Part shown: piece by piece, positions 4,595 to 41,486 of the stretch
Layout of the letters: every line of letters begins with the position of its first letter
How positions within the stretch are numbered: position 1 is the stretch's first letter
Origin: an uncultured bacterium
Lineage (GTDB): Bacteria; Planctomycetota; UBA1135; GCA-002686595
Direction: 5' to 3'
DNA length: 64,000 bases
Assembly: GCA_938075305.1 (NCBI GenBank)
Contig: CALJGV010000010.1
Location: 310,001 to 374,000 of the forward strand
Translations under genes and position numbers: made by a program
The notes under the pieces: generated by a model
The model's input: only the letters and a program-made list of their open reading frames with translations
What the model was told of the DNA's origin: nothing
Database searches by the model: none

Positions 4595-5844
4595 TCGCCG
4601 CCTCCATCCTCGCCGTGGCCCTGGCGGCCCAGGCACCCTCGGTGGCGGCCGACGGGGGCGCGGCTGTTCCCGGGCAGGACCAGGCCGGTTCGGCGGCGGC
4701 GATCGAGCTCGAGCGGCTGCGCGCGAGGGAGAGCGAGTTGCTCGCGCGCATCTCGGCGCTGGAGGACCAGCTGCGCTCGGAGAGGGCCCGGAGCCTCCAG
4801 CGGCAGGAGGAGTGGGTCGCCTTCACCCGACTGCTCCAGGGCTTCGAGCTCCCCGCGCTCCCCGAGCCTCCGGACTTCGTGGCCGAAGCGCTCGTGGTCC
4901 CGCGGGACCCCGCTGCGGAGGCGCTGGAGCGAGCCGAGGCTGCGCGCCGCTGGCGCGGGACCCAGGTGGCGGCGTCCCTCAGGACCCTGCTCACGGCGGA
5001 GAGCGTCCGGGGCGTGGACCTCCTCGAGGTCGGCTTGATCCACGAGCATCAGGGCCGAAGCTGGACCGGGCCGGTCATCGCCAGGCTCCTCGACGAGCGT
5101 GGCCGGATGGTCGGGATGATGAAGGCGGCCCGCCTGCGGCTGGAGGTCAGTCGATCGTCGCGGTCCGTCACGATCATCCTCGAGGACGGCTACGAGTCAC
5201 GGGCCGGTGTGCGGCGCCCATTCGAGGGCGGGGTCGCGGTCCCGTCGCAGGGCGAGGCCCTGTCGGAGGTCCGCGGCGGCCGACAACGGATCTACCTGGG
5301 GGCGGTGGACCCCGAGCCCTGGATCGAGGCGCTCCCTGAGCTCGTGGATCCCGTGCTCCTCGCCAGGGCTACCGATGATGGCCTCTGGGACCTCGATGAT
5401 CTTCGGGTTCAGATCGTGCGGCTGCTCCACGAGGCGGCCCAGGCCGGGGATCCGCGCTGGCGCCTGGTGGGCCTGGGGGGGGTGCGCGGGAGCGATCTCC
5501 GTGACGTGCAGTTCGCCGAGGTCGACGCGGTGACCGGCCGGGCCCAGCGGCGCGTCTTCGCGGACAGCGCCCGGATCCGCATCCGCCCGAGCGGCGGAGT
5601 GGAGCTGCAGTTCGAAGGGGGCTCCGTGCGCCGGGGGACCCGCGTGGCCCCGTTCCTCGCGGGCAAGTACCGGATCGTCCTCCCGAGGGCCCGGGCCGAG
5701 GACTGGCGCGAGGTTTCGCTGCCGGGCCTCGCGGCCCCGCCAGTGCGGCCCGCCAGCGACTCGAAGGAGCCCGCCAGCGACTCGAAGGAGCCTGCCAGCG
5801 ACTCGAAGGAGATCGTCGAGGAACCCGTCGCACCGGTGCGGTAG
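4591..5844 (+). CDS. Hypothetical secreted protein with coiled coil and SDSKE tail repeats
   Basis: This is a 417-residue exported protein that starts with GTG inside the stop of the previous gene (4-bp overlap). An alanine-rich signal peptide (to about residue 20) is followed by a heptad-like, charged helix at about 35-75 (LERLRARESELLARISALEDQL), a likely coiled coil. The middle is beta-rich and includes a conserved-looking stretch around FEGGVAVPSQGEA. The C-terminus carries three back-to-back PASDSKE units encoded by a 21-bp tandem repeat (5749-5811). Coiled coil plus signal peptide would suit an envelope structural or peptidoglycan-associated protein, but I recognise no family. The stop is 10 bp before xseA. 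Confidence 0.65.
   Translation: MIAASILAVALAAQAPSVAADGGAAVPGQDQAGSAAAIELERLRARESELLARISALEDQLRSERARSLQRQEEWVAFTRLLQGFELPALPEPPDFVAEALVVPRDPAAEALERAEAARRWRGTQVAASLRTLLTAESVRGVDLLEVGLIHEHQGRSWTGPVIARLLDERGRMVGMMKAARLRLEVSRSSRSVTIILEDGYESRAGVRRPFEGGVAVPSQGEALSEVRGGRQRIYLGAVDPEPWIEALPELVDPVLLARATDDGLWDLDDLRVQIVRLLHEAAQAGDPRWRLVGLGGVRGSDLRDVQFAEVDAVTGRAQRRVFADSARIRIRPSGGVELQFEGGSVRRGTRVAPFLAGKYRIVLPRARAEDWREVSLPGLAAPPVRPASDSKEPASDSKEPASDSKEIVEEPVAPVR
5749..5811 (+). repeat. 21-bp tandem direct repeat, three copies
   Basis: Three adjacent 21-base units (5749-5769, 5770-5790, 5791-5811) read CCCGCCAGCGACTCGAAGGA plus a final G; the third differs by one C-to-T change. They encode three PASDSKE heptapeptides at the end of the preceding protein. 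Such in-frame units can change copy number by slippage without breaking the frame. Confidence 0.95.
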
Positions 5845-5854
5845 CCTTGCGCGC

Positions 5855-7360
5855 GTGAGCCTCTTCGATGACGTTCCCAGGCGCCCGCGCGGCGGCACGC
5901 GCGGACGCGGTTCGGGCGTCAGGAGAGCGGCGGCTGCTCGGGTCCCCGGAGCGGCCGAGCCGGCGCGAGGGAGCGAGCGGCTGGGAGCCGATGCGGAGCG
6001 GGGAGAGGCGGCGTCTGAAGTCGTGTCGGTCTCCCAGCTCACGGCTCGTATCAACACCGCGCTGAAGGGCTTCGGCCGCGTCGCCGTGGAGGGCGAGATC
6101 AGCCGGCCCAAGACCGTCGCGTCGGGCCACGTGTTCTTCACCCTCAAGGACGGGTCCGCCGTGCTGGATGCGAAGGTCTGGCGATCGGCGGCGCCCCGCG
6201 CGCTCGCCTCCGTGGGGAAGCTCACCGAGGGCGCGCGCGTGGTCTGCCACGGCACCCTCGATGTGTACGCACCCTACGGCAAGCACAGCCTGATCGTGGA
6301 CCGCATCGAGCCGCGCGGCATGGGCGCGCTGCTCGCGGACCTGGAGCGGCTCAAGGTTCAGCTGCGCGAGGAGGGGTTGATGGATCGGCGTCGGCCCTTG
6401 CCGCGGTTTCCCGCGCGCGTGGGGGTCGTCACGAGCCGAGACGCGGACGCGTGGCGGGACTTCCTGCGGACCCGCTCCCTGCGTTGGCCGGGCTACCCGG
6501 TACGGCTGGTCCACTCCCGGGTCCAGGGGCAGGCCGCGGCGAAGGAGGTCGCGGCGGCGATCCGGCGCCTGGACGAGAGCGGTGTGGACGTGGTCGTCGT
6601 GTGCCGCGGTGGGGGCGCCATCGAGGACCTCTGGTGCTTCAACGAGGAGGCCGTGGCCCGGGCGATCTGGGCCTGCAGCGTGCCTGTGGTCACGGGGGTC
6701 GGTCATGAGACCGACACGACCCTCGTGGATCTGGTCGCGGACCACCGTGCCCACACCCCGACCGACGCGGCGCAGACGGTGCTCCCCGACCGGGCTGCGC
6801 TGCTCGAGGCGATCGAGCGGCAGGGGGCATACCTGGGCGACGCCTTGGAGCGCGCGGTCGAGGGCCGCGCGGACCGCTTCGCCCGGGCGGCGCGCACCCT
6901 CCGGTTGCGCACCCCCGCGCGGCTCGTGGAGGAGCGCGGGGCGCGCGTTGAGGCCCTCGCGCGACGGGGCCGAAGCGCGTCGATATCGCTCATCCAAGAG
7001 TCAGCTACGCGGTTGGAGCGCCTCGCTGCGCGGCTCGAGCGCCAGAGCCCCATGGCGCGCGTCGTGCGGGCCGAGGGGCAGGTTGGGGGAGCCACGAGCC
7101 GGCTCGTGGCTGCCATGGGGGCCCTGGTCGCCGCCGCCGATCGCCGGCTCGCGCCGGCGGGTCGTGCGCTGGAGGCGGTGTCGCCGCTCGCGGTGCTGGA
7201 GCGCGGCTACTCGATCACGCGCCGCGCCGACGGCCGAGTGGTGGAGGACCCCTCCGAGCTCGGTGAGGGGGAGGAGCTCACCACCATCGTGGCGCGCGGG
7301 GAGATCGACTCGACCGTGGGCGCCGTCCGCTCCAGGGAGCGGGGAGGCGAGGATGGCTGA
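5855..7360 (+). CDS. xseA: Exodeoxyribonuclease VII large subunit
   Basis: This is the catalytic large subunit of the single-strand-specific exonuclease VII, which works in mismatch and DNA repair. The GTG at 5855 gives 501 residues. The first about 55 are arginine/alanine-rich and unlike the family, so a later start (a GTG near 6021) is possible. An OB-fold domain follows (about 57-155; VEGEISRP and GHVFFTLKD are typical), then the catalytic domain with CRGGGAIEDLWCFN (about 250-263), GHETDTTLVD (about 283-292) and ADHRAHTPTDAA. A long helical region precedes the conserved end (LERGYSITR). Unusually, no xseB small subunit follows; instead the next gene, a glycosyltransferase, overlaps by 8 bp. 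Confidence 0.93.
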   Translation: MSLFDDVPRRPRGGTRGRGSGVRRAAAARVPGAAEPARGSERLGADAERGEAASEVVSVSQLTARINTALKGFGRVAVEGEISRPKTVASGHVFFTLKDGSAVLDAKVWRSAAPRALASVGKLTEGARVVCHGTLDVYAPYGKHSLIVDRIEPRGMGALLADLERLKVQLREEGLMDRRRPLPRFPARVGVVTSRDADAWRDFLRTRSLRWPGYPVRLVHSRVQGQAAAKEVAAAIRRLDESGVDVVVVCRGGGAIEDLWCFNEEAVARAIWACSVPVVTGVGHETDTTLVDLVADHRAHTPTDAAQTVLPDRAALLEAIERQGAYLGDALERAVEGRADRFARAARTLRLRTPARLVEERGARVEALARRGRSASISLIQESATRLERLAARLERQSPMARVVRAEGQVGGATSRLVAAMGALVAAADRRLAPAGRALEAVSPLAVLERGYSITRRADGRVVEDPSELGEGEELTTIVARGEIDSTVGAVRSRERGGEDG

Positions 7361-8327
7361 CCCCGCGAAGCCAGAGAAGAAGTCCGTGGCCTCCGGGACC
7401 TGGGCCGTGGTGGTGAACTGGAACGGCGGGGGAGAGCAGAACCTCGCCTGTCTCCGCTCGCTGTTGGCTCAGGGCGTCGCCGCGGACCGGATCGTCTTCG
7501 TGGACAACGCCTCGACGGACGGTTCCCGGGAGGAGGTCTCATCGGCCCTTGCCGGCCTCGTCCACCTGGACAACGACCGCAACCTGGGGTTCGGTGAGGC
7601 GGCCAATCAAGGGGCCAAGCTGGCGCTGGAGAGGGGCGCAGGGGCCGTCCTCTTCGTCAACAACGACCTGCGCTTCGAGGACGGCGAGCCCTGCCTCGCC
7701 GGGCTCGAGGAGACCCTGCGCTCAGGGGCGCGGGTGGGGATGGTGGGGCCCCGGATCCTCTTCGACGATGGCACGGAGCGGGTGTGGTGCGCCGGCGGCC
7801 GCCTGGACTATCGCCAGAACCTCTCGACCCTGCTCGGCCACAAGCGCAAGGACGGGCCCCGTTGGCAGGAGTCCGGACCCGTCGATTACATCCCCGGGTG
7901 TGCGCTGCTGGTGGGGCGCGAGTGCCTCCTGGACGTGGGGCTCTTCGACGCGTCGTACTTCGCCTACATGGAGGACGTGGACCTTGGCCTGCGAGCGAGG
8001 CGGCGCCACTGGTCCGTGCTGCTCCGAGGCGACCTGTGCGCCCTGCATGCCCCCTCCAGCTCGACGGGCGGGGGATACGGCCCCCGCCGGAAGTGGATGC
8101 AGGGCGTCAATTCCATCCGGTTCCTGAAGGCTCACGGTCGCTCCATGCAATGGGCCCGCTTCCTGCTCTTCGACGTGCTGACGCTCCCGCTGGCGCTGCT
8201 GGTGCGGGGCTGCCGGGGAGAGGGCGGTGGCGTCCTCGCCAAGGCCAAGGGGATCCTCGATGGAGTGGCGGGGCGGAAGGTCACGGCCGAGGCCCTCGAG
8301 CCCGGGGCCTCGAGGCTGTGGCGCTGA
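7353..8327 (+). CDS. Family 2 glycosyltransferase, rhamnosyltransferase-like
   Basis: This is a 324-residue GT2 enzyme that would transfer a sugar from a nucleotide-sugar donor to a growing glycan at the inner face of the membrane. The GT-A fold signatures are clear: VVVNWNG at the N-terminus, VDNASTDGS (about 50-58), the NND metal-binding motif (about 103-105), and EDVDLGLRARR (about 207-217), which supplies the catalytic acidic residues. This pattern is typical of rhamnosyltransferases and WcaE-like enzymes. A hydrophobic C-terminal stretch (LLFDVLTLPLALLV) may tether it to the membrane. The ATG at 7353 overlaps the end of xseA by 8 bp. The donor and acceptor are unknown. Confidence 0.9.
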   Translation: MADPAKPEKKSVASGTWAVVVNWNGGGEQNLACLRSLLAQGVAADRIVFVDNASTDGSREEVSSALAGLVHLDNDRNLGFGEAANQGAKLALERGAGAVLFVNNDLRFEDGEPCLAGLEETLRSGARVGMVGPRILFDDGTERVWCAGGRLDYRQNLSTLLGHKRKDGPRWQESGPVDYIPGCALLVGRECLLDVGLFDASYFAYMEDVDLGLRARRRHWSVLLRGDLCALHAPSSSTGGGYGPRRKWMQGVNSIRFLKAHGRSMQWARFLLFDVLTLPLALLVRGCRGEGGGVLAKAKGILDGVAGRKVTAEALEPGASRLWR

Positions 8328-30420: not shown

Positions 30421-30717
30421 TCAGGCCTTCTTCTTCTGTCCGGCCTTGATCGGCTTGATGAGGCCCGCCTTGAGGAGCGTGGGGTACGCGCCGTTCTTGT
30501 CGATGGTCCGCATGGCGCGGGTCGACAGACGGACGGTGACGTACTCACCCATCTCGGGGACCCAGATGCGCTTCTTCTGGACGTTGACCTTGTACTTCCG
30601 CTTGGTGTGGCCGGTCGTACGAAGGCCGACGCCGCCCTGGGACTTGGGGAGGCCGCGGCGGGCAATGTTGCCGCCGACCTTGGTTCCGCTGCCGGTGATC
30701 TGGCAAGTCCGGGACAT
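30421..30717 (-). CDS. rpmB: 50S ribosomal protein bL28
   Basis: This is a large-subunit ribosomal protein of 98 residues. The N-terminus SRTCQITGSG, the basic TTGHTKRKYKVNVQKKRIWVPE in two adjacent pieces, and VTVRLSTRAMRTIDKNG are the family pattern. It is longer than the 62-78 residue form of many bacteria because of an internal insertion and a lysine-rich C-terminus (KPIKAGQKKKA), like the long forms known from Thermus. It is not next to rpmG here. A 263-bp gap upstream holds the promoter; on the transcribed strand that gap includes T7 and G8 runs. Confidence 0.95.
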   Translation of the reverse strand: MSRTCQITGSGTKVGGNIARRGLPKSQGGVGLRTTGHTKRKYKVNVQKKRIWVPEMGEYVTVRLSTRAMRTIDKNGAYPTLLKAGLIKPIKAGQKKKA

Positions 30718-32135: not shown

Positions 32136-33074
32136 TCAGTCGTCCAGGAACACCCGGGCCGGCTCCTCCACGGAACCGTCCACGGTGCGCAACTCAGCGC
32201 CGTCCAGGATGCGCTGGATGGCGTCCATGTAGAGCTTCCGTGCAGCGTCCGAGTCGGCGTCGCCCACCGCCGCCGCGAGGTCCTTGAAGGCGCTGGCGCG
32301 GCCCCGAGCCTCGGCGATGGAGCCCTCGGCGCTGGAGCGCGCCTCCTGGAGCATCTGGCTGACCCGGGTCCGGGTTGCGACCTCCAGTCTGTTGGCCGCG
32401 AACTGGGCCTGGGCGATGGCGCGCTCTCGATCGGCGAGGGCGTCCTGCACGTCGGTGAACGCGCGGCGCACCCCCACGGGGGCCTTGCTCTCGAGCAGCT
32501 GCACTTCGTCGATGACGACGCCCAGCCCGAGGCGGTCCGCGTCCCTCTGGATCCGCTCACGCGCCTCGCTCGGGACCACCGCGAGCCCTGCGGTCAGCAC
32601 CTGGTCGATGGTCAGCTCAGCGACGATGTCGGTCAACGCCGCCTCGCCAAGGCGGCGGAGCGCGAAGCGCGGGCTCTCGCGCTCGCCGGACCCCGAGGCG
32701 CTGACCCCCGAGACGCCGTAGAGCCACGCGCGCACGTCGAACACGCGGAAGAGCACCGTCGCCTTAAGCTCGACGATGTTCGTGTCAGCGGTGAGCCACT
32801 GCTTTTCCCGCGGAGTCGGGTCGATGGACATGAGCTCATCGACGAGGCGAAACCCGATGGGCATCTGCAGGGATCGGTCCACCTCGGCCTTGCGCACGAC
32901 CTCGATGGGCCAGGGCAGCCGCAGGTGGATCCCCGGGGCGAGCTCACGGGAGGCCGCGCCGAAACGCTCCACCACACCGCGCGAGCCGTTCTCGACGGTG
33001 GCTATGCACAGCCATCCCAGGAGCGCGACGACCGCCAGGGCGGCGCCCAGGCCGATGCGGCGGTCCCGGATCAC
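32136..33074 (-). CDS. SPFH/Band-7 protein, HflC-like
   Basis: This is a 312-residue membrane protein with one N-terminal transmembrane anchor (about 8-28, LGAALAVVALLGWLCIATV) and an SPFH domain. VVERFGAASRELAPGIHLRLPWPIE, split by the usual turn, and the ATVLFRVFD strand are HflC/HflK signatures. They are followed by a long helical coiled-coil region (about 190-290; AQAQFAANRLEVATRTRVSQ). The GTG at 33074 overlaps the stop of the upstream SPFH gene by 4 bp, so the two are translationally coupled. HflK and HflC form a cage around membrane partners such as FtsH; here the linked partner is a metal permease. It is the last gene of the four-gene metal/SPFH run. Confidence 0.85.
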   Translation of the reverse strand: MIRDRRIGLGAALAVVALLGWLCIATVENGSRGVVERFGAASRELAPGIHLRLPWPIEVVRKAEVDRSLQMPIGFRLVDELMSIDPTPREKQWLTADTNIVELKATVLFRVFDVRAWLYGVSGVSASGSGERESPRFALRRLGEAALTDIVAELTIDQVLTAGLAVVPSEARERIQRDADRLGLGVVIDEVQLLESKAPVGVRRAFTDVQDALADRERAIAQAQFAANRLEVATRTRVSQMLQEARSSAEGSIAEARGRASAFKDLAAAVGDADSDAARKLYMDAIQRILDGAELRTVDGSVEEPARVFLDD

Positions 33075-34039
33075 TCTCCGCCCTCCGTCCGGGTGGGGGA
33101 CGGTGCCTCCATGGCCGGGCCCACGAGCTGGAAGATCTGCCCCAGGGGGTGATCGGCGGGAAGCACGATGAGCGCGCCCCGGAGCGCGCTCTCTGCGATC
33201 TCGGCGGACCGCAGCCGCCAGTAGAGCTCGGGGTTGAGCTGGATCGATTCGTTCTCGATTCGCTTGGCCTCGGCCGCGCCCTCGCCCCGGATCTTCAGGG
33301 ACTCCTGGCGGGCCTCCGCGAGGATGCGTGACTCCTCGAGCTTGGCCTCGGTCTGGATCTTGGAGGCGCGCTCGTTCCCCTCGGAGCGGTACTGGGCCGC
33401 GAAGCCCTCGCGGGCCGCTCGCATGCTCCGCTCGACGGAGGCCTTGTTGTCCTCTGGGAACGTGATGCGCTCCAGCCCGACGAACTCGATCGCGACGCCG
33501 TAGCTGTTCTCCTGGCAGCGCCGGGCAACCTCCTCGGTGGCCATCCGGCGGATCACGTCCAGGTTGCGTTCCCGGCCCGGCTCGCCCACGAGGTCCGAGA
33601 AGGGGCCGCGCTTGAGCACCTCGATCAACGCCGACTGCAGCAGGTCGCCGATCCGGTCGTCCGCGCTCTGCCGGGTGCGCAGGCTGGTCAGGAAGGTCCG
33701 CGGGTCGTCCACGCGCCAGGCGACGAAGGCGTCCAGTTCGACGTTCTTCTGGTCGAGGGTCAGGAACTCGGCCACAGGAGGGTCGAGCAGGTGGGTCCGG
33801 ATGTCGATGGGGTAGACGACGTCCGCGGGCGCCGGCCATTTGAAGTGGAGGCCGGAATCCTCCACGAGCCGCTCGGGGTCGCCGAAGCGCGCGACGACAG
33901 CCACGGTCCCCTCGGGGACCGTGAAGGTGCATGCCCAGCCGGCGGCCCCCAGCGCGGCCGCGCCCAGCCAGAGGAGAGTGGAGCGGGCGGCGCCGGTGCG
34001 TGCGGGCAAGCCGTCGGTGGTCGGTCGGTTCATGATCAA
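33071..34039 (-). CDS. SPFH/Band-7 protein, HflK/HflC-like
   Basis: This is a 322-residue membrane-anchored SPFH protein. An N-terminal hydrophobic helix (about 22-38, TLLWLGAAALGAAGWAC) precedes VPEGTVAVVARFGDPERLVEDSGLHFKWP in two SPFH strands, then DQKNVELDAFVAWRVDDP and a helical tail with many alanine, glutamate and arginine residues (about 205-265; EAKLEESRILAEARQESLKI). This order matches HflC-type prohibitin-fold proteins. The ATG at 34039 overlaps the upstream permease-SPFH stop by 4 bp, and its own stop overlaps the next SPFH start by 4 bp. Three SPFH domains are thus made in one coupled run. Confidence 0.85.
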   Translation of the reverse strand: MIMNRPTTDGLPARTGAARSTLLWLGAAALGAAGWACTFTVPEGTVAVVARFGDPERLVEDSGLHFKWPAPADVVYPIDIRTHLLDPPVAEFLTLDQKNVELDAFVAWRVDDPRTFLTSLRTRQSADDRIGDLLQSALIEVLKRGPFSDLVGEPGRERNLDVIRRMATEEVARRCQENSYGVAIEFVGLERITFPEDNKASVERSMRAAREGFAAQYRSEGNERASKIQTEAKLEESRILAEARQESLKIRGEGAAEAKRIENESIQLNPELYWRLRSAEIAESALRGALIVLPADHPLGQIFQLVGPAMEAPSPTRTEGGE

Positions 34040-36195
34040 CGCCTGGGGTTGAAGGTCTCGTCGAGGACGGAGGGGGGCGGCGGCCCGTCCGACCCCAGGA
34101 GGGGGATGATCTTGATGTTGTCGCTGAGGGGCAGAACGACGCGTCGCTCTCCGTTGTCCGCGGGCCGCATGGCGCGCTCGAAGGAGTCCGTCAGCATGCT
34201 CTGCTCCGTGATGGAGGGATGCTCGCCGTGAACCTCCACCAGGGCCTTGAAGGCCGACGCTACCCCGGCGGCGGAGGCCTCCTCGCTGAGGCGGTCGGCG
34301 AGCGCGTCGGAGCGGACGCGGAGGGCCTCGGCGCGGGCTTGGCTGAGGCGCTCCACGCGGTTGACCTGGGCCTTCTTCTCGGCCGTGATGGCGTCCTCCA
34401 TGGCGCTCGCCACCGCCCGGTAGGCGTCATGGACAGCGGGGGGTGCGTGCACGTCGTGCAGGAAGACCCGGACGAGGCTCGCGCCGATCTGTCGTTGCTC
34501 CAGGTCTTCGCTCAGGCGCCGCTCGACGTCCGCGATGAACGGGCCGCTGGCGCCCACGAGGACCTCCTCCGCGGTTCGGGTGGCGACGGCGCGGCGCAGG
34601 GCGTCCTGAGCCAGGCGTGAGATGGTGCCTTCTGGCCCGCTCTGGCCATAGCGCCATTGGCGCGCGTCTTCGACGCGGTACTGTGCTCCGAAGCGGACGC
34701 TGAGGAGCAGGCCGTCGCTGGTGAGGGTCTCGGACTCGGCCTCGAGCGCGGCGATCCGGCGGCGCTCGGCCATGAGGGCCAGGGCGTCCACCGTACTGTC
34801 GTCCACCGGGACGCGGTCGATCCCGAACTCCACGCTCCGGATCAACGACGTCGAGACCCTTGCCGTCTTATCGATGGGCCAGGGGGCGTGGATGATCAGG
34901 CCAGGGGCAGTGTGCTCCTGCGCCACCCGGCCGAAGCGCTCGACGAAGACCGTCTCGCCAGGGCCCACCGAGGTGAGCGAAGAGGAGAGGTAGAGCGCGG
35001 CCGCCGCTGCGCCCATGACTTGGCGGGCGGGGGCGGAGGTCAGGTCGAGGCCGAGGGGGCGCCCCGCCAGCTGGATCCAGCCCGCGAACCGGGCCGAGAC
35101 ACGGGTCTTGATTGCGGAGCGGAGGAGGAGCGCGGCGAGGATCAGGCCGGACACGGTGGAGATGACGCCGTGCTCCATGGCGCCCGGCGCGACGTCCATG
35201 TCTCGCGGGTCGAAGCCCAGGGCCGGGTACAGGACGTTGACAGCGGTGCCCAGCAGCAGTGAGACCACCGCGATGCTCCCGAGGTAGGACGCCAGCGCGC
35301 GCGACCCCAGGAGGTCTCGCACCACGAGGATCGTGGCGACGTTGGTGGCCGGCCCCGCGAGCAGGAAGACCAACGCCGCGCCCGGCTCGAGACCCTTGGC
35401 CATCATGGCGGCCGCGATGGGGGTCGAGGCGGTGGCGCAGACGTAGAGGGGCACGCCGGCGATGAGCATCGCGAGCATGGCCGTCCAACCCGTGAAGAGG
35501 GTCCCCTCGAAGAAACCGTCGGGGACCGCCACGACGATGGTCGCCGAGATCGCGAAGCCGACGATGAACCAGGGGGTCAGGTCGTCGAGCAGCGTCCCGA
35601 AGGCATACCGCATGGCGCGGCCGAAGACGGAGCCGCCCTCAGGCGCATCCTGGCTGTGATCGTGATCGTGATCGTGGCGGTCACCATGGTCCGCGGGGGC
35701 CGTGTCGGTGGTGTGGCTGCAGCAGGAGCCGCCGGTGGCCTCAGGGGCCGCGACGCCGGGCTCCTCGGCCCCCGGGCCCTCGCCGCCGAAGAGATTCACG
35801 GTCACCCCCGAGGCGAAGGCTGTGATGAACGCCGCTAGCGGCCGGATCACCGTCATCAACGGGTCCATCAGGGCCCACGTGGCGCCGATGGAGTCGACCC
35901 CCGTCTCGGGCGTCGAGATCAGGAAGGAGGTGGTGGCCCCGCGGCTGGCGCCGGAGCGGCGCAGCTGGGTCGCTGTGGGGATGACGGAGCACGAGCAGAG
36001 CGGGACCGGAACGCCGATCAGGGCTGCGGTGGCCACCGAACGGGTGTCGTCTCCGCCCAGCCGCCGCGCCACCCAGCTGGTGGGGACGAAGACCGCGAGG
36101 AAGCCCGCGATGGTGAAGCCGACGAGGAGGTAGGGCCCTGACTCGGCCAGGACCATCCAGATCGCCTCGAACCATTCTGTGAGCATCTCCGTCAT
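34036..36195 (-). CDS. Metal-efflux-type permease (SO_0444/DUF318-like) fused to a C-terminal SPFH domain
   Basis: This is a 719-residue fusion. Residues about 1-330 are a polytopic permease with a GVPVPLCSCSVIP motif (about 61-73), GVPLYVCATASTPIAAAMM (about 247-265) and GPATN (281-285), the pattern of the SO_0444-type Cu/Zn permease family. The cytoplasmic or periplasmic loop at about 155-180 has two cysteines and a histidine/aspartate repeat (HGDRHDHDHDH), a likely metal-binding segment. After another membrane segment (about 391-408), residues 411-700 form an HflK-like SPFH domain (GPGETVFVERFGRVAQEHTAPG) with a long helical region. The frame is continuous with no stop, so the fusion is real in this sequence. 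It lies 21 bp after a ZIP transporter and overlaps the next SPFH gene by 4 bp. Confidence 0.85.
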   Translation of the reverse strand: MTEMLTEWFEAIWMVLAESGPYLLVGFTIAGFLAVFVPTSWVARRLGGDDTRSVATAALIGVPVPLCSCSVIPTATQLRRSGASRGATTSFLISTPETGVDSIGATWALMDPLMTVIRPLAAFITAFASGVTVNLFGGEGPGAEEPGVAAPEATGGSCCSHTTDTAPADHGDRHDHDHDHSQDAPEGGSVFGRAMRYAFGTLLDDLTPWFIVGFAISATIVVAVPDGFFEGTLFTGWTAMLAMLIAGVPLYVCATASTPIAAAMMAKGLEPGAALVFLLAGPATNVATILVVRDLLGSRALASYLGSIAVVSLLLGTAVNVLYPALGFDPRDMDVAPGAMEHGVISTVSGLILAALLLRSAIKTRVSARFAGWIQLAGRPLGLDLTSAPARQVMGAAAAALYLSSSLTSVGPGETVFVERFGRVAQEHTAPGLIIHAPWPIDKTARVSTSLIRSVEFGIDRVPVDDSTVDALALMAERRRIAALEAESETLTSDGLLLSVRFGAQYRVEDARQWRYGQSGPEGTISRLAQDALRRAVATRTAEEVLVGASGPFIADVERRLSEDLEQRQIGASLVRVFLHDVHAPPAVHDAYRAVASAMEDAITAEKKAQVNRVERLSQARAEALRVRSDALADRLSEEASAAGVASAFKALVEVHGEHPSITEQSMLTDSFERAMRPADNGERRVVLPLSDNIKIIPLLGSDGPPPPSVLDETFNPRR

Positions 36196-36216
36196 GGGCG
36201 GGCCGTGGTACGGCGT

Positions 36217-37110
36217 TCAGATTCCCCCGTGAGCGTGTACCGCCCACATCAAGGTAACCCCTGCGGTCAGAAGGCCAAGTTTCAGAGCACTGTCCTGACG
36301 CTGGTGGAAGACCTCAGGGAGAAGCTCGCAGAGGCAGACGTAAAGGAAGGTGCCGGCCGCGAGGGAGGTGAGGATCGGGATACTGGCACCGAGCAGGCCC
36401 GTAAGGGCGCCTCCCATCAGCAGGCCGAGGGGGGTGATGAGCGAGAAGGCCACCAGCAGAGTGATGAGCCGACCGCGCCCGATGTCGGTCATGGAGAAGA
36501 CCGAGGCAAGAGAGAATGACTCGAAGCCCTTGTGGGCCAGGATCGCGAGCAGCATGACTCCGGCGAGCTGGGCCTCGCCCTGGACCGCTGCGAGGGCGAC
36601 GCCCGCGGTCAAGGAGTGGACGCTCAGTCCAACGAGCGCGGCCCAGCCCACCGCCGCGTGTCGCTGGGCATCGTTGTGGCCGTGGCCGTGCCCGTGTGTG
36701 GAGCCGGGGATCATGAGAGCCTCGACGAGGAAGACTCCGAGGACGCCGACTAGGACCCACAGCCAGGGCCCGACCGGCCCATGAACGTGGCCGGCGTGGG
36801 CTCCATGATCGTGATCATGATCGTGGCCGTCCTCTTCCCCGTCCTCGTAGCCCGGTGAGCCCGGCCCGTGGTCAGGGACCCCGTCCCCGTCGTGGTCGTG
36901 GGTGAGGTCGATGACCTGCTCCTGGGCGTGGTCATGTCCGGCGCTCGCCTCCTGACCGATGACGGGGAGGAGGTGCAGGAAGACCGCGCCGAGGAAGATG
37001 CCGGTGGAGAACGCGAGGGCGGCGTGGTGGCCCCTCTCCTTCCACTTGAGGAAGAGCGGGGCGAGGCCGCCCGCGAGCCCGACGGCGAAGATGGCGAGTG
37101 CCTGGAGCAT
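36217..37110 (-). CDS. ZIP-family divalent metal transporter with histidine-rich loops
   Basis: This is a 297-residue polytopic ZIP protein. The first three membrane segments are followed by a long loop (about 57-110) rich in His, Asp and Glu (GHDHAQEQVIDLTHDHDGDGVPDHG and DGHDHDHDHGAHAGHVHG in shorter pieces), then a second His run (HGHGHGHND). The conserved metal-site helices are LSVHSLTAGVAL and LAHKGFESFSLA, where H and E/S residues form the binuclear site; the usual HNxxDG is replaced by HSLTAG. ZIP proteins carry Zn2+ or Fe2+ into the cytosol. It sits 7 bp after the sugar-transferase stop and 21 bp before the permease-SPFH gene. Confidence 0.9.
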   Translation of the reverse strand: MLQALAIFAVGLAGGLAPLFLKWKERGHHAALAFSTGIFLGAVFLHLLPVIGQEASAGHDHAQEQVIDLTHDHDGDGVPDHGPGSPGYEDGEEDGHDHDHDHGAHAGHVHGPVGPWLWVLVGVLGVFLVEALMIPGSTHGHGHGHNDAQRHAAVGWAALVGLSVHSLTAGVALAAVQGEAQLAGVMLLAILAHKGFESFSLASVFSMTDIGRGRLITLLVAFSLITPLGLLMGGALTGLLGASIPILTSLAAGTFLYVCLCELLPEVFHQRQDSALKLGLLTAGVTLMWAVHAHGGI

Positions 37111-37117
37111 GAAGAGA

Positions 37118-38740
37118 TCAGGTGCCGCGGCGGAGGACGACCGTCTTGACCGTGGAGATCAGGATCGAGAGGTCGAACAGGACGCTGTAGTTCTTGATGT
37201 AGAACAGATCGTATTGGAGCTTGTGAAGCGCGTCCTCTTCCGTGTTTCCGTACGGGTAGTTCGTCTGGGCCCATCCGGTGACGCCGGGCTTCACGATGTG
37301 ACGCAGGCGGAAGTAGGGGATGCGGGCTGCCAGCTGGTCCACGAAATGCTGCCGCTCGGGCCTGGGACCGACCAGGGACATCGAGCCGGACAGCACGTTG
37401 AAGAGCTGGGGCAGCTCGTCCAGGCGCGTCTTCCGCATGAACTTCCCGAAGCGTGTGATGCGCGGGTCGTCCTCCGACGCCCACACCGGGCCGCTCAGCT
37501 TCTCGGCATCGGCGCGCATGGAGCGGAACTTCATCAGGACGAAGGGGCGGCCGTCCTGGCCGACGCGCTCCTGGGTGAAGAGGATCGGCCCGGGGGAGGT
37601 CAGCCGCACCACGACCGCTACGATGGCCATCACCCACCAGAGGAGCACGAGCATGATGAGCGCCACCACGACGTCGTTCATGCGCTTCAGGAGAGCGGCG
37701 AAGGGGTGCCGCCGGAAGCCCTCGTTGAAGATGAGGTAGGAGGGACGCATGGCGGCGACCGCGATCCTGCCCGTGACCTGCTCGTAGACCTCCTCGCGCT
37801 CTCGGACCTCGACGCCCGCGAGCCTGGCCCGGAGGAGGTCCTCGATCGGGAGCGTGAGGCGTCGGTCCTCGAGGGCCACCACGATCATCTCGACCCTGAG
37901 CTTTTGAAGGAGCTCGGGGAGCCCCTCCTCCCCGGGAGCCCGCTGTGCGAGGTTCCCCGAGGACGCGTCCAAGTTCCCGGGCTCCCGCCCGAGGAGGTCG
38001 ACCCCCTCGAGGATGAGGGCTCGGGTGGCATCGGAGGCGGCGTCCTCGGACGCGGTGATGGGCGACTCGATCTTGTCCGAGCGGCGCCGGTCGATGGTGG
38101 ACGTCGGTTCCGGAACGAGGCCCACCACCCGGAAGCCAGCCTCGGGGTGGGCGATGATCTGGTTCGCCAACGCATGGGCCGGACCACGGGATCCGAGGAT
38201 CAGCACCCGCACGTCCAGGTCAGCGCGGCGGATGAGAGCGTGGTACGCGAAGCGCCCGAGGTACAGGAGGCCGAACCCGGTGGAGGCCGTCCCGATGAGG
38301 ATCTGGATCTTCCTGGAGAGCGAGAGGCCGGGAAACGCGTAGACGAGGTCGGCGCCCAAGAGGTGGCTGACGATCACGAAGGCGACCGACAGCGCGATCC
38401 CGATGCCCGCGGACTCCACGAAGCGAGAGGCCCGCTCATAGCGGGAGGCGGTGATCTGGAACTCGTAGAGACGGTTCAGCCCGATGGAGAGCAGGAGCGT
38501 CAGCGTCACCAGGCCCGCCGAGAACGCGGCGTGGAAGGCGGCGTCCCGGGGGAGCATGCTCTCACCCCCCAGCGATCTCATCACCTCCCGGTTCTCTGGC
38601 TCGCTGCTCGCCGGATCGGCCAGGAGGTCCCACAGGTGGTGGGTCATCCCCGCCGTGATGACGGCGTAGAGCAGCAGCGCTTCCACCGAGACCAGGAGGA
38701 AGGTGCGGACGGGGAAGTAGTGCTGTAGGACGCGCAGCAT
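37118..38740 (-). CDS. Polyprenyl-phosphate sugar transferase (PEP-CTERM/exosortase-associated type)
   Basis: This is a 540-residue membrane enzyme that would start exopolysaccharide repeat-unit synthesis by putting a sugar phosphate on undecaprenyl phosphate. The N-terminal half has four or five membrane helices and a CoA-binding/Rossmann-like middle (LDVRVLILGSRGPAH). The C-terminal half is the bacterial sugar transferase: LMKFRSMRADAE, RKTRLDELPQLFNVLSGSMS, VGPRPERQ and KPGVTGWAQ. I chose the ATG at 38740 because MLRVLQHYFPVRTFLL matches the family start; an in-frame ATG at 38770 is possible. The order matches the TIGR03013-like transferases of exosortase systems. The EPS locus lies about 6 kb away on the other strand. 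Confidence 0.9.
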   Translation of the reverse strand: MLRVLQHYFPVRTFLLVSVEALLLYAVITAGMTHHLWDLLADPASSEPENREVMRSLGGESMLPRDAAFHAAFSAGLVTLTLLLSIGLNRLYEFQITASRYERASRFVESAGIGIALSVAFVIVSHLLGADLVYAFPGLSLSRKIQILIGTASTGFGLLYLGRFAYHALIRRADLDVRVLILGSRGPAHALANQIIAHPEAGFRVVGLVPEPTSTIDRRRSDKIESPITASEDAASDATRALILEGVDLLGREPGNLDASSGNLAQRAPGEEGLPELLQKLRVEMIVVALEDRRLTLPIEDLLRARLAGVEVREREEVYEQVTGRIAVAAMRPSYLIFNEGFRRHPFAALLKRMNDVVVALIMLVLLWWVMAIVAVVVRLTSPGPILFTQERVGQDGRPFVLMKFRSMRADAEKLSGPVWASEDDPRITRFGKFMRKTRLDELPQLFNVLSGSMSLVGPRPERQHFVDQLAARIPYFRLRHIVKPGVTGWAQTNYPYGNTEEDALHKLQYDLFYIKNYSVLFDLSILISTVKTVVLRRGT

Positions 38741-38963
38741 GGGAGGGGGGGGAATACCCCTCCTGTTCATCGGCCTCGCTGGTCGCGTTCGATGAGGGGA
38801 AGGGGCGCTCCGTGTGGGCGGGAGCTCCGTGTGGAGCGGAAGATTATTCCCATCCGCGCCCCAGCGGAGGCCCCAGGCGCGGAAAGCTGGGACAGGCCCG
38901 GGGCGGCGTCGCGATGGAGCCAGGGTGGGGGGGGGAGCGGGCGGCGCTCCACCCCGCAGGGCG

Positions 38964-41486
38964 TCAGCGTCCGCCGCCGTCCAGCCCCTCAAGGATCTCC
39001 CTGAGTTCGGCCATCGATTCGGGGCTCAGGGTCCCGCCACCCTCTGTGGGGGCCATCAACTCGCGCGCACGCGCCAGCTCGGGCGACCGGACGCGGGAGG
39101 GAGCGCTGGCGACCCGGTCCCCCTCGGCCTCTCGGTCCACGAAGGTCGCCTTGTACTCCGCGATCCCGTCCGGGCTCTGGTCTCGCTTCGCCAGCACCTC
39201 CTCGATGGCTGCCTGGAGCTGCAGGTCCTCGGCGAAGTCGCCCATGGGCAGGGCGCTGCCCCGCAGGTCCTGGAAGCGGCGACGGACGTCAATGCGCAGC
39301 AGGAACCGGATGTCTTCCTCCGGGAGGGACGTGTCCAACGAGGCGTAGAGGTCGTCGAAGCCCGGATAGAGCTCGGGGTCGTCGAAGTCGCAATAGGCGA
39401 GCTTGCCCATGGTCTCAGGATCCTCGTCGAAGCGCTCCAGGACCCACTCGCGCAGGGCGCGGGTGTCCTGGATCCGGCGCATCTCGAGGAGGCGCCATGA
39501 CTCGCGGCGGAGCGGCTCCACCTCGATGTCCGGGGAGACGCCGCCCGCGCTCAGGATGTTGCCCTCCTCGTCCAGCTCGCGGTGGATCGAGCGGCCGAGG
39601 GGGAGCAGGTAGCGCTCGATGGTGAGCTTGATGCGCGGGGCGTAGTCGAACTCGCCGTCCCCGTCGTAGTCGCGGGTGATCGGCTCCCAGTTGTCGCGTC
39701 GCCCGTTTCGGTTCTCGTCCCCGTACTCGTCGTCCCGCTCAGGGGCGAGGGGGATGAGGGACTGCACCGAGCCCTTGCCGAAGGACCGCTGGCCCACGAG
39801 CGTGGCCCGGCCGAGGTCCTGCAGGGCGCCGGAGACGATCTCCGAGGCCGACGCTGAGAAGCGGTTGATGAGGACGGCGACGGGGATGTCCTCGGACACG
39901 ATGGCCGGCATGCGCGTCTTGAAGACCTTGGCGTCCCGGAAGCGGCTCTCCGTCTTCACGACGGTCTGCTTCTCCGGGAGGAAGAGGTCGGCCACCTCAC
40001 GGGCCTGGGTCAAAAGGCCCCCGGTGTTGTTGCGCAGGTCGAGGATCACGCCGTTCAGCTCCTCCTTGCCCGACTCGCGGGTGAGCTTGCGGATCGCCTC
40101 GTAGACGTCCTGGGCGGCGTTCCTGCTGAAGGTCTGCAGCTCCACCAGCCCGATGTCGCCGGGGAGGAGTTGGCTGTGAACCGACGGGATGCTGATCTGG
40201 GCGCGCTCCACCGAGACCTTCATCTGGTCGGTCGGCCGGTCGATCAGCCCCGCGTCCATGCCGCGGCGCCAGATGTAGAGGTCCACGTCGGTCCCCGGCT
40301 TGCCCTTGAGGCGCTTGATGACCTCGTCGGTGGGCTCGCCCACGGTGGGCCAGTCCCCGATACGGACGATCTTGTCGTCCGTGCCGAGCCCCGCGCGGTA
40401 GGCCGGGCCCGAGTAGATCGGTCGGGTGATGGTGAAGAGCCCGTCGTCGGGGTCGTTCTGCACATAGGCGCCGATGCCCCCGTACTCCGCCTCGAGGTCC
40501 TGCTCGAACTTCTCGTAGGACTCGGAGGAGAAGTAGGACGAGTGGCGGTCGAGGCGCTTGAGCATGCCCTGCATGGCTGCCTCCAGGAGGGCCTCCCGGT
40601 CCACGGTATCCCCCTCGAGGTGAAGCTCCTGGATCAGCGCGATGAGGCGCTCGATCCGCGCGAGGTCGTTGGGCATTTCACCTCCGAGTCGGCGGTTGCC
40701 CTCCTCCCGGCGCATGCGGCGGAGCCTGGACTCGTAGAAGCGGTCCTGCCGCAGCTGCTCGAGGTAGGCGCGCGCCAGCCGGCCGGATTCGCCGGGGAGC
40801 TGTGAGAGCCGTGAGAGCTCGTCCTCGACACCATCCACCTCTTGGACAGCGCCGATCTCCGCGAAGCCCAGGGCGCCGGCCGCGCGGAGGTTGGGGTCGG
40901 AGCTCTCGAGGAAGGACGCCAGCACCCGCCGGGCCGACGCGATCTGTGAGCCGCGTCCGAGCCGTGTGGCGGCGATGGCGCAGGCCACGCGGAGTTCGAT
41001 GTCTCCCTTGCCCCCGGCCCGCTGGAGGAGCTTCTCGGCAGCCTCTCCCTTGGCGTCACGGTCCGAGATCTCCGGGGCGATGGCCCCGAGGAGGTCCGCC
41101 GCCGCGCGGGCGAGGTCCGGGTCCTCGGCGTCGAGCGCCCCGGTGGCGGCCGTGGCCACGAGGCCGTGGTCCACGTCGTCTCCATCGAGGCGCAGGCTCA
41201 CAAGGAAGAGCAGGCGCCGGGGGTCCTTCTCTCCGGCTCGCAGGCGCGCGTCCAGGGTGGCGTCCATGGCGGCGCCGAGCTCCTCGTCCAGGAGCCCCCC
41301 GACTCGGGCGGCCTCGCGCCAGATGCCTCCGGCGTCCATGGCCCGGATGGCCTCGAGCCGGTCATCCAGGATCGCGTCGACCTCGTCCTGTGGGGCGGCC
41401 GGGCGCGCGACCGGCACGGGGGCCAGCGCGGGCTGGGGGGCGGGTCCCAGGAGGGCGGCGAGGCAGAGGAGGGCGCTTGAGAACAT
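38964..41486 (-). CDS. S41 carboxyl-terminal processing protease with HEAT-like N-terminal extension
   Basis: This is an 840-residue exported serine protease of the tail-specific type. A signal peptide (about 1-22) leads to a helical region with HEAT-like repeats (about 40-245). A PDZ domain spans about 335-410 (YGGIGAYVQ, DDKIVRIGDWP). The S41 domain (about 440-690) carries the dyad Ser546 (NRFSASASEIV) and Lys571 (SFGKGSVQ), 25 residues apart as in Prc. An acidic insert at about 583-615 (DDEYGDENRNGRRDNW, DYDGDGEFDY) follows the lysine. Such proteases trim C-termini of envelope proteins. It is 223 bp upstream of the sugar-transferase gene on the same strand and divergent from moaC. Confidence 0.92.
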   Translation of the reverse strand: MFSSALLCLAALLGPAPQPALAPVPVARPAAPQDEVDAILDDRLEAIRAMDAGGIWREAARVGGLLDEELGAAMDATLDARLRAGEKDPRRLLFLVSLRLDGDDVDHGLVATAATGALDAEDPDLARAAADLLGAIAPEISDRDAKGEAAEKLLQRAGGKGDIELRVACAIAATRLGRGSQIASARRVLASFLESSDPNLRAAGALGFAEIGAVQEVDGVEDELSRLSQLPGESGRLARAYLEQLRQDRFYESRLRRMRREEGNRRLGGEMPNDLARIERLIALIQELHLEGDTVDREALLEAAMQGMLKRLDRHSSYFSSESYEKFEQDLEAEYGGIGAYVQNDPDDGLFTITRPIYSGPAYRAGLGTDDKIVRIGDWPTVGEPTDEVIKRLKGKPGTDVDLYIWRRGMDAGLIDRPTDQMKVSVERAQISIPSVHSQLLPGDIGLVELQTFSRNAAQDVYEAIRKLTRESGKEELNGVILDLRNNTGGLLTQAREVADLFLPEKQTVVKTESRFRDAKVFKTRMPAIVSEDIPVAVLINRFSASASEIVSGALQDLGRATLVGQRSFGKGSVQSLIPLAPERDDEYGDENRNGRRDNWEPITRDYDGDGEFDYAPRIKLTIERYLLPLGRSIHRELDEEGNILSAGGVSPDIEVEPLRRESWRLLEMRRIQDTRALREWVLERFDEDPETMGKLAYCDFDDPELYPGFDDLYASLDTSLPEEDIRFLLRIDVRRRFQDLRGSALPMGDFAEDLQLQAAIEEVLAKRDQSPDGIAEYKATFVDREAEGDRVASAPSRVRSPELARARELMAPTEGGGTLSPESMAELREILEGLDGGGR

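Follow-up and report, generated by a model that had tools for sequence, protein, structure and literature searches.

A zinc/copper efflux-family permease fused to an HflK-like SPFH subunit and linked to two further SPFH genes in diverse bacteria

Introduction

What the cages built by SPFH proteins enclose, and why, is a long-standing question. The HflK/C complex closes around FtsH in the membrane (PMC13220708), and domes of human stomatin hold AQP1 or UT-B in a membrane patch (PMC12407830). Here we describe a locus in which a candidate cargo is encoded in the SPFH gene itself. It lies in a stretch of 64,000 nucleotides (positions 310,001 to 374,000 of contig CALJGV010000010.1, assembly GCA_938075305.1) from an uncultured planctomycete; this whole stretch is called the window. 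The source genome comprises 4.42 Mb in 55 contigs at about 90% completeness.

Two described systems come close. The first is the SO_0444 family of permeases. Fitness under zinc and copper stress gave SO_0444 of Shewanella its name as a copper/zinc efflux protein (PMC3219624); a relative in Nitratiruptor is induced by Cd and Cu (PMC10092412), and one member of the family is a selenocysteine protein in which the motif reads UxC (PMC13188914). The second is the cluster PA2434-2439 of Pseudomonas aeruginosa, in which three genes of the HflK/HflC family accompany the P-type ATPase HmtA (PMC4542158). The excerpted paper on PaFlo5-7 of strain PA14 contains neither the word 'ATPase' nor 'HmtA' (PMC13086221). 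PaFlo5-7 appear to be the same three SPFH genes as in PA2434-2439.

A fusion of a transporter with an SPFH domain has apparently not been described in bacteria: no such description was found in the open-licence papers searched, subscription papers and most preprints lying outside the search. The words 'permease' and 'transporter' are absent from the excerpted text of the 2009 survey of prokaryotic SPFH proteins (PMC2636767), and the excerpts of PMC7997004 and PMC10434189 hold nothing on such fusions. This agrees with a first-pass annotation of the window, made from sequence, which knew of no system of this composition.

The permease-SPFH locus

Four genes, ZIP, fusion A, SPFH gene B and SPFH gene C, form a minus-strand run at window positions 32136-37110. 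Their features are:

36217..37110, minus strand: ZIP-family zinc transporter, 297 aa, with His-rich loops (Pfam Zip 106.1 bits, gathering score 35.1)
34036..36195, minus strand: fusion protein A, 719 aa, SO_0444-type permease plus HflK-like SPFH (open reading frame, Pfam, NCBIfam; conserved in 9/9 genus genomes)
35119..36159, minus strand: permease domain of A, residues 13-359 (NF033936, 394 bits, curated cut-off 300)
35989..35997, minus strand: CSC motif (C67, C69), candidate metal site (in 33/33 other aligned fused permeases)
35629..35787, minus strand: Cys/His-rich acidic loop of A, residues 137-189, predicted periplasmic (loop charge, helix parity; AlphaFold2 confidence low at 143-185)
34984..35034, minus strand: predicted transmembrane (TM) helix ahead of the SPFH domain, residues 388-404; the R/K-rich loop before it is predicted to be cytosolic (AlphaFold2 model, loop-charge analysis)
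34324..34971, minus strand: SPFH (Band_7) domain of A, residues 409-624 (Pfam 60.4 bits; Foldseek HflK 7vhq_E)
34222..34440, minus strand: predicted long helix 3' of the SPFH domain of A, residues 586-658, like the walls of HflK/C (AlphaFold2 model)
33071..34033, minus strand: SPFH gene B, HflC-like, 320 aa, likely ATG start (Band_7 100.4 bits; tree; AlphaFold2; Foldseek HflC 7vhq_G)
32136..33074, minus strand: SPFH gene C, HflK-like, 312 aa, GTG start (Band_7 61.8 bits; tree; PDB profile HflK)

The genes are tightly spaced. The first-pass annotation reported one gap of 21 bp and two overlaps of 4 bp. The gap between ZIP and A and the overlap of B and C (GTGA) are as it stated. The overlap of A and B follows from the start TTG 34039 in the list of open reading frames and probably does not exist; ATG 34033, which leaves a 2-bp gap after the fusion, is the likelier start because the four closest relatives (L060-L063) have an ATG at that position too.

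Fusion A and the gene order are borne out by open reading frames, Pfam and NCBIfam. Pfam recognizes ArsP_1 at residues 15-320 (133.8 bits), and NF033936 identifies the permease half as an SO_0444 family Cu/Zn efflux transporter. All three Band_7 scores exceed the gathering score of 23.6 bits. The ZIP protein scores 37.7 bits against TIGR00820, under the cut-off of that model. The histidine-rich loops noticed earlier exist in both the permease and the ZIP. By its family, the fused permease would mediate zinc/copper efflux.

How does this locus compare? With the SO_0444 family the permease half shares a score above the family cut-off and the CSC motif, whereas no SPFH half has been described for known members. 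With HflK-HflC of Escherichia coli, the modulators of FtsH (7vhq, 7wi3, 9cz2), the SPFH proteins share a TM helix, the SPFH domain and a long helix; here, however, there are three genes, one of them bearing a transporter, the scores stay under the equivalog cut-offs, and the locus is not beside ftsH. The cluster PA2434-2439 likewise unites three SPFH genes with a metal transporter and is zinc-regulated, yet by description its transporter is a separate P-type ATPase, and neither an SO_0444 permease nor a ZIP is named there. The window contains no P1B-ATPase match above 150 bits, and the trio therefore lacks the neighboring pump of an SPFH operon of the hmtA type. The stomatin dome resembles the proposed arrangement in that an SPFH dome has a transporter inside its membrane patch; it differs in being non-covalent, built from one SPFH protein and located in a eukaryotic plasma membrane (PMC12407830).

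Occurrence across genomes

The full-length fusion is open in all nine genomes of the genus, that of the window and eight others with identities of 52-91%; all nine also retain the order ZIP, fusion, B, C. Outside the genus but within the same family or order, all 26 permease loci fetched are unfused and none contains SPFH; the same holds for 11 further unfused loci of the phylum. At least seven of these 37 loci are the same places as among the 47 unfused permeases of the wider scan described below.

A profile of the nine fusions run against 294 genomes of the phylum yielded nine more fused loci, each followed by B and C. A wider contig scan used 17 fusions as query and took in 80 of 583 relatives, of which 33 carry fused and 47 unfused permeases. 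Among the matches listed, B and C accompany 33/33 fused permeases, and an SPFH match within the locus accompanies 0/47 unfused ones. After six of the 33 loci were dropped as duplicates and L249 was added, the total comes to at least 46 distinct fused loci, which are not independent of each other. Among the matches listed B is present in 46/46 and C in 46/46. The objection that homologous permeases might never be linked to SPFH genes elsewhere is thus removed.

The ZIP transporter behaves differently. The first-pass annotation had suggested checking whether the fusion co-occurs with ZIP and the two SPFH genes; only the latter are constant. ZIP is found in 22/46 distinct fused loci, upstream in 19 and downstream in three, and was rejected as an obligatory partner. 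Four loci carry genes of a Znu-type importer downstream in place of ZIP: ZnuA, ABC ATPase and ABC-3 genes in L142 and L146, one ABC-3 gene in L134 and L148.

By record lineages the fused loci, mostly from metagenome-assembled genomes, span ten phyla: Planctomycetota, Gemmatimonadota, Tectimicrobiota (Entotheonella), Pseudomonadota, Deltaproteobacteria/Myxococcota, Zixibacteria, Acidobacteriota, Binatota, Latescibacterota and Spirochaetota. The Pseudomonadota are represented by three Bradyrhizobium isolates and one Emcibacteraceae bin. Hence, the fusion is no oddity of a single genus. As for plasmids as a source, the single plasmid match to the SO_0444 fusion covers the permease part alone, and this candidate was dropped.

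Across 33 loci, the distances of the permease, A, B and C are correlated with one another (r 0.48-0.77; 0/999 permutations as high), as if the set were inherited together. All 34 aligned fusions match NF033936 as well as TIGR01933. C67, C69 and C253 of the permease are kept in all 33 other fused permeases; of the 47 unfused ones, 46 have C67 and all have C69 and C253. A loop with at least four histidines occurs in 18/33 fused vs 2/47 unfused permeases, two sets which differ in taxonomy. The permease tree requires seven changes between the fused and unfused states, of which well-supported branches force only one; the fusion may have arisen once or more often.

Two further arrangements were encountered. 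In 13 relatives of the same family or order (L040-L046, L050-L052, L077-L079) ZIP and permease share one open frame with no SPFH nearby, and in L041 and L044 a continuous protein was read. In Bradyrhizobium locus L128 two genes, 5737-6741 and 6776-7897, stand ahead of the fusion: an extra HflC-like SPFH gene and one named by eye as acetamidase/formamidase-like.

Other metal exporters on SPFH subunits of this kind

The SO_0444 permease is not the only exporter attached to a first SPFH subunit. A cation diffusion facilitator (CDF) takes its place in L102 and L269; in L112 the partner is a heavy-metal P-type ATPase (TIGR01525, 586 bits). B and C are present at all three loci. Further single genes of P1B-ATPase and SPFH occur at L244:4916-8242 and L258:4375-7860 (1109 and 1162 aa).

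In a sister group of operons the first of three SPFH genes carries a polytopic N-terminal part without a Pfam match, and the metal pump is a separate gene. These loci were found with a query built from such operons and were mostly picked by long open frames (40 regions), so that their counts are not prevalences. Of 41 listed loci, 39 were retained after removal of L117, where a long open frame is followed by an ordinary pair, and L245, the N-terminal part of which (460 aa) has no Pfam match. A P1B-ATPase lies directly downstream in 33 of the 39 and upstream in one, several loci being cut by contig ends. These ATPases retain DKTGT and often have CPG, CPT or CPS instead of CPC (L104, L230, L231, L233, L236, L238, L240, L246, L255, L259, L262-L264, L266). 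Judged from this motif, their substrate or direction may differ.

Sister operons occur in Planctomycetota and on plasmids of Burkholderia ubonensis, Klebsiella aerogenes, Rhizobium tumorigenes and Paraburkholderia sprentiae, where the annotated order is HflK (568-672 aa), HflC or SPFH, SPFH or HflK, P-type ATPase. They share with the fusion loci the order A-B-C and a metal pump; they differ in that their A and C form clades of their own and the pump is unfused. By published descriptions PA2434-2439 looks like such a sister operon.

Of the plasmids, pYD-K10_1 of Klebsiella aerogenes (L272) is typed conjugative and carries the operon as HflK, HflC, HflK, P-type ATPase with a DUF4198 gene near. 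An ArsP_1 permease gene precedes the sister operon at L104:8037-9611 (4-bp overlap) and L233:820-2628, i.e., permease and ATPase meet in one cluster.

Tree placement and structure models

In a FastTree phylogeny of 187 SPFH domains plus HflK and HflC of E. coli, the B genes of all types group with HflC (support 100), and the C genes of the permease, CDF and ATPase types group with HflK (support 99, 41 rows). The fused A genes are not part of the group of HflK plus C. Sister-type A and C form the separate clades mentioned above (support 99 and 96). Sequence profiles of PDB entries return HflK for A and C and HflC for B. By tree placement, A and C are both classed as HflK-like and B as HflC-like.

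The AlphaFold2 model of A from the window (34 rows) has a mean predicted local distance difference test score (pLDDT) of 79.8, and its best Foldseek matches are HflK chains of E. coli (7vhq_E, E 1.3e-11). The model of B (pLDDT 85.1) shows one TM helix, the SPFH domain, a long helix and a second helix; its best match is HflC (7vhq_G). Global TM-scores are low for both (0.2-0.4 by query) because the domains are placed differently.

Loop charges give an indication of topology by the positive-inside rule, with the reservation that the permease has broken helices, which makes their count uncertain. Residues 362-391, ahead of the last TM helix of A, average 6.9 R/K vs 1.6 D/E per protein, as expected for a cytosolic segment. 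The acidic, His/Cys-rich loop 132-205 averages 5.7 R/K vs 15.2 D/E. Together with helix parity this predicts a periplasmic His loop and, as in HflK, a periplasmic SPFH domain for A.

Discussion

The first interpretation of the locus, a metal-exporting pore inside an SPFH enclosure with the ZIP importing the same metal, is partly supported. We favor, with a little less than even confidence, a zinc/copper handling module in which HflK/C-type periplasmic domes have a transporter tethered to one of their subunits. By analogy with HflK/C, B and C would build a dome that covers a patch of the inner membrane from the periplasmic side. A would be a third, HflK-related subunit in which a whole SO_0444-type transporter precedes the membrane anchor; it might occupy HflK-type positions beside C, alternating with B. 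A would then bring the transporter to the membrane patch of the dome, and the ratio of A to C would set the number of transporters. Metal leaving the cytosol would enter the dome lumen instead of the open periplasm, cytosolic zinc being supplied by ZIP or, in other lineages, by a Znu-type ABC importer. The lumen may hold the metal or hand it over.

Several findings weigh against this reading. A and C score 92.1 and 134.4 bits against the HflK equivalog TIGR01933 (cut-off 159.4), and B scores 109.8 bits against the HflC equivalog TIGR01932 (cut-off 134.4). The predicted TM-score (pTM) of the model of A is 0.56. ZIP is absent from 24/46 fused loci, two of which are cut by contig ends, and the ATPase-SPFH genes of L244 and L258 have neither B nor C nearby. 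Further points come from P. aeruginosa. In a znuA mutant PA2437, PA2438, PA2439 and hmtA are up 14.4-, 10.6-, 9.0- and 5.6-fold (PMC4542158), the proteins of PA2434-2439 rise on zinc depletion (PMC11761036), and HmtA is described as an importer (PMC4542158, PMC8531726, PMC11761036). This cluster, the best-studied operon of the sister kind, answers zinc shortage and not zinc excess, so that a reading purely in terms of export or detoxification is unsafe.

These data lead to the strongest competitor, which we consider rather unlikely, albeit by no means negligible: under Zur-type control, SPFH proteins would gather or stabilize the transporters by which zinc is acquired and delivered, and the fused permease would serve delivery and not detoxification. 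Zur shifts the PA2439 promoter (PMC8531726); ZIP in 22/46 fusion loci, the Znu-type genes in four others and, close to the Paraburkholderia sister operon, zinc ABC genes fit as well. Yet the founding SO_0444 was assigned to efflux by stress fitness (PMC3219624), and in L126 an ArsR-type regulator, typical of excess sensing, stands ahead of ZIP. Moreover, the sister operon carries a different cargo, and in one study zinc repression of hmtA mRNA was not seen (PMC8531726). Zinc links these observations.

Control of turnover is improbable. The SPFH proteins would act on the transporter or on ZIP as HflK/C acts on FtsH, and the fusion would guarantee recruitment to a protease complex. B does group with HflC and C with HflK, the genome has one FtsH above cut-off, and SPFH models reveal no other HflK/C-like pair in the four other SPFH regions fetched from it (L055-L058). 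FtsH, however, is on another contig, and it would be left unexplained why several metal-exporter families are the ones fused. Still harder to sustain is a mere tether, by which the SPFH half sets the permease in a lipid microdomain with neither a closed chamber nor a lumenal metal pool. A role as scaffolds of microdomains is widely ascribed to SPFH proteins (PMC13086221), but the strict company of two more HflK/C-type genes in 46/46 fused loci suggests a defined hetero-assembly. That an error of sequencing or assembly joined two genes, a concern raised at the outset, is practically ruled out because the fusion is open in 9/9 genus genomes with the four-gene order kept and recurs in 46 distinct loci, which are spread over many contigs and include three from isolate genomes.

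SPFH subunits of one kind are thus found joined to metal exporters from at least three unrelated families. Beyond the zinc/copper module proposed for the window, and more tentatively than for it, one may envisage that bacteria have SPFH domes dedicated to holding metal. HflC- and HflK-like subunits would form a small periplasmic compartment, one HflK-type subunit would bear an exporter that can be exchanged (SO_0444 permease, CDF or P1B-ATPase), and metal released into the enclosed lumen would be stored there or loaded onto client proteins. The recurrence in distant bacteria hints at membrane cages dedicated to metal handling, and the fusion trio suggests what the Zur-linked SPFH trio of P. 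aeruginosa, so far unexplained, may do. With the cargo fused to an SPFH subunit, its identity, topology and stoichiometry are directly testable, also in cultivable Bradyrhizobium.

Neighboring genes

A gene at window positions 37118-38992, named by eye from its translation as a sugar transferase, ends 7 bp before ZIP; the gene and this upstream neighborhood are kept in 8/8 genus relatives. On the other side, a gene at 30421-30717 was likewise named by eye as an L28-like ribosomal protein; it has a single cysteine and is possibly a zinc-free form.

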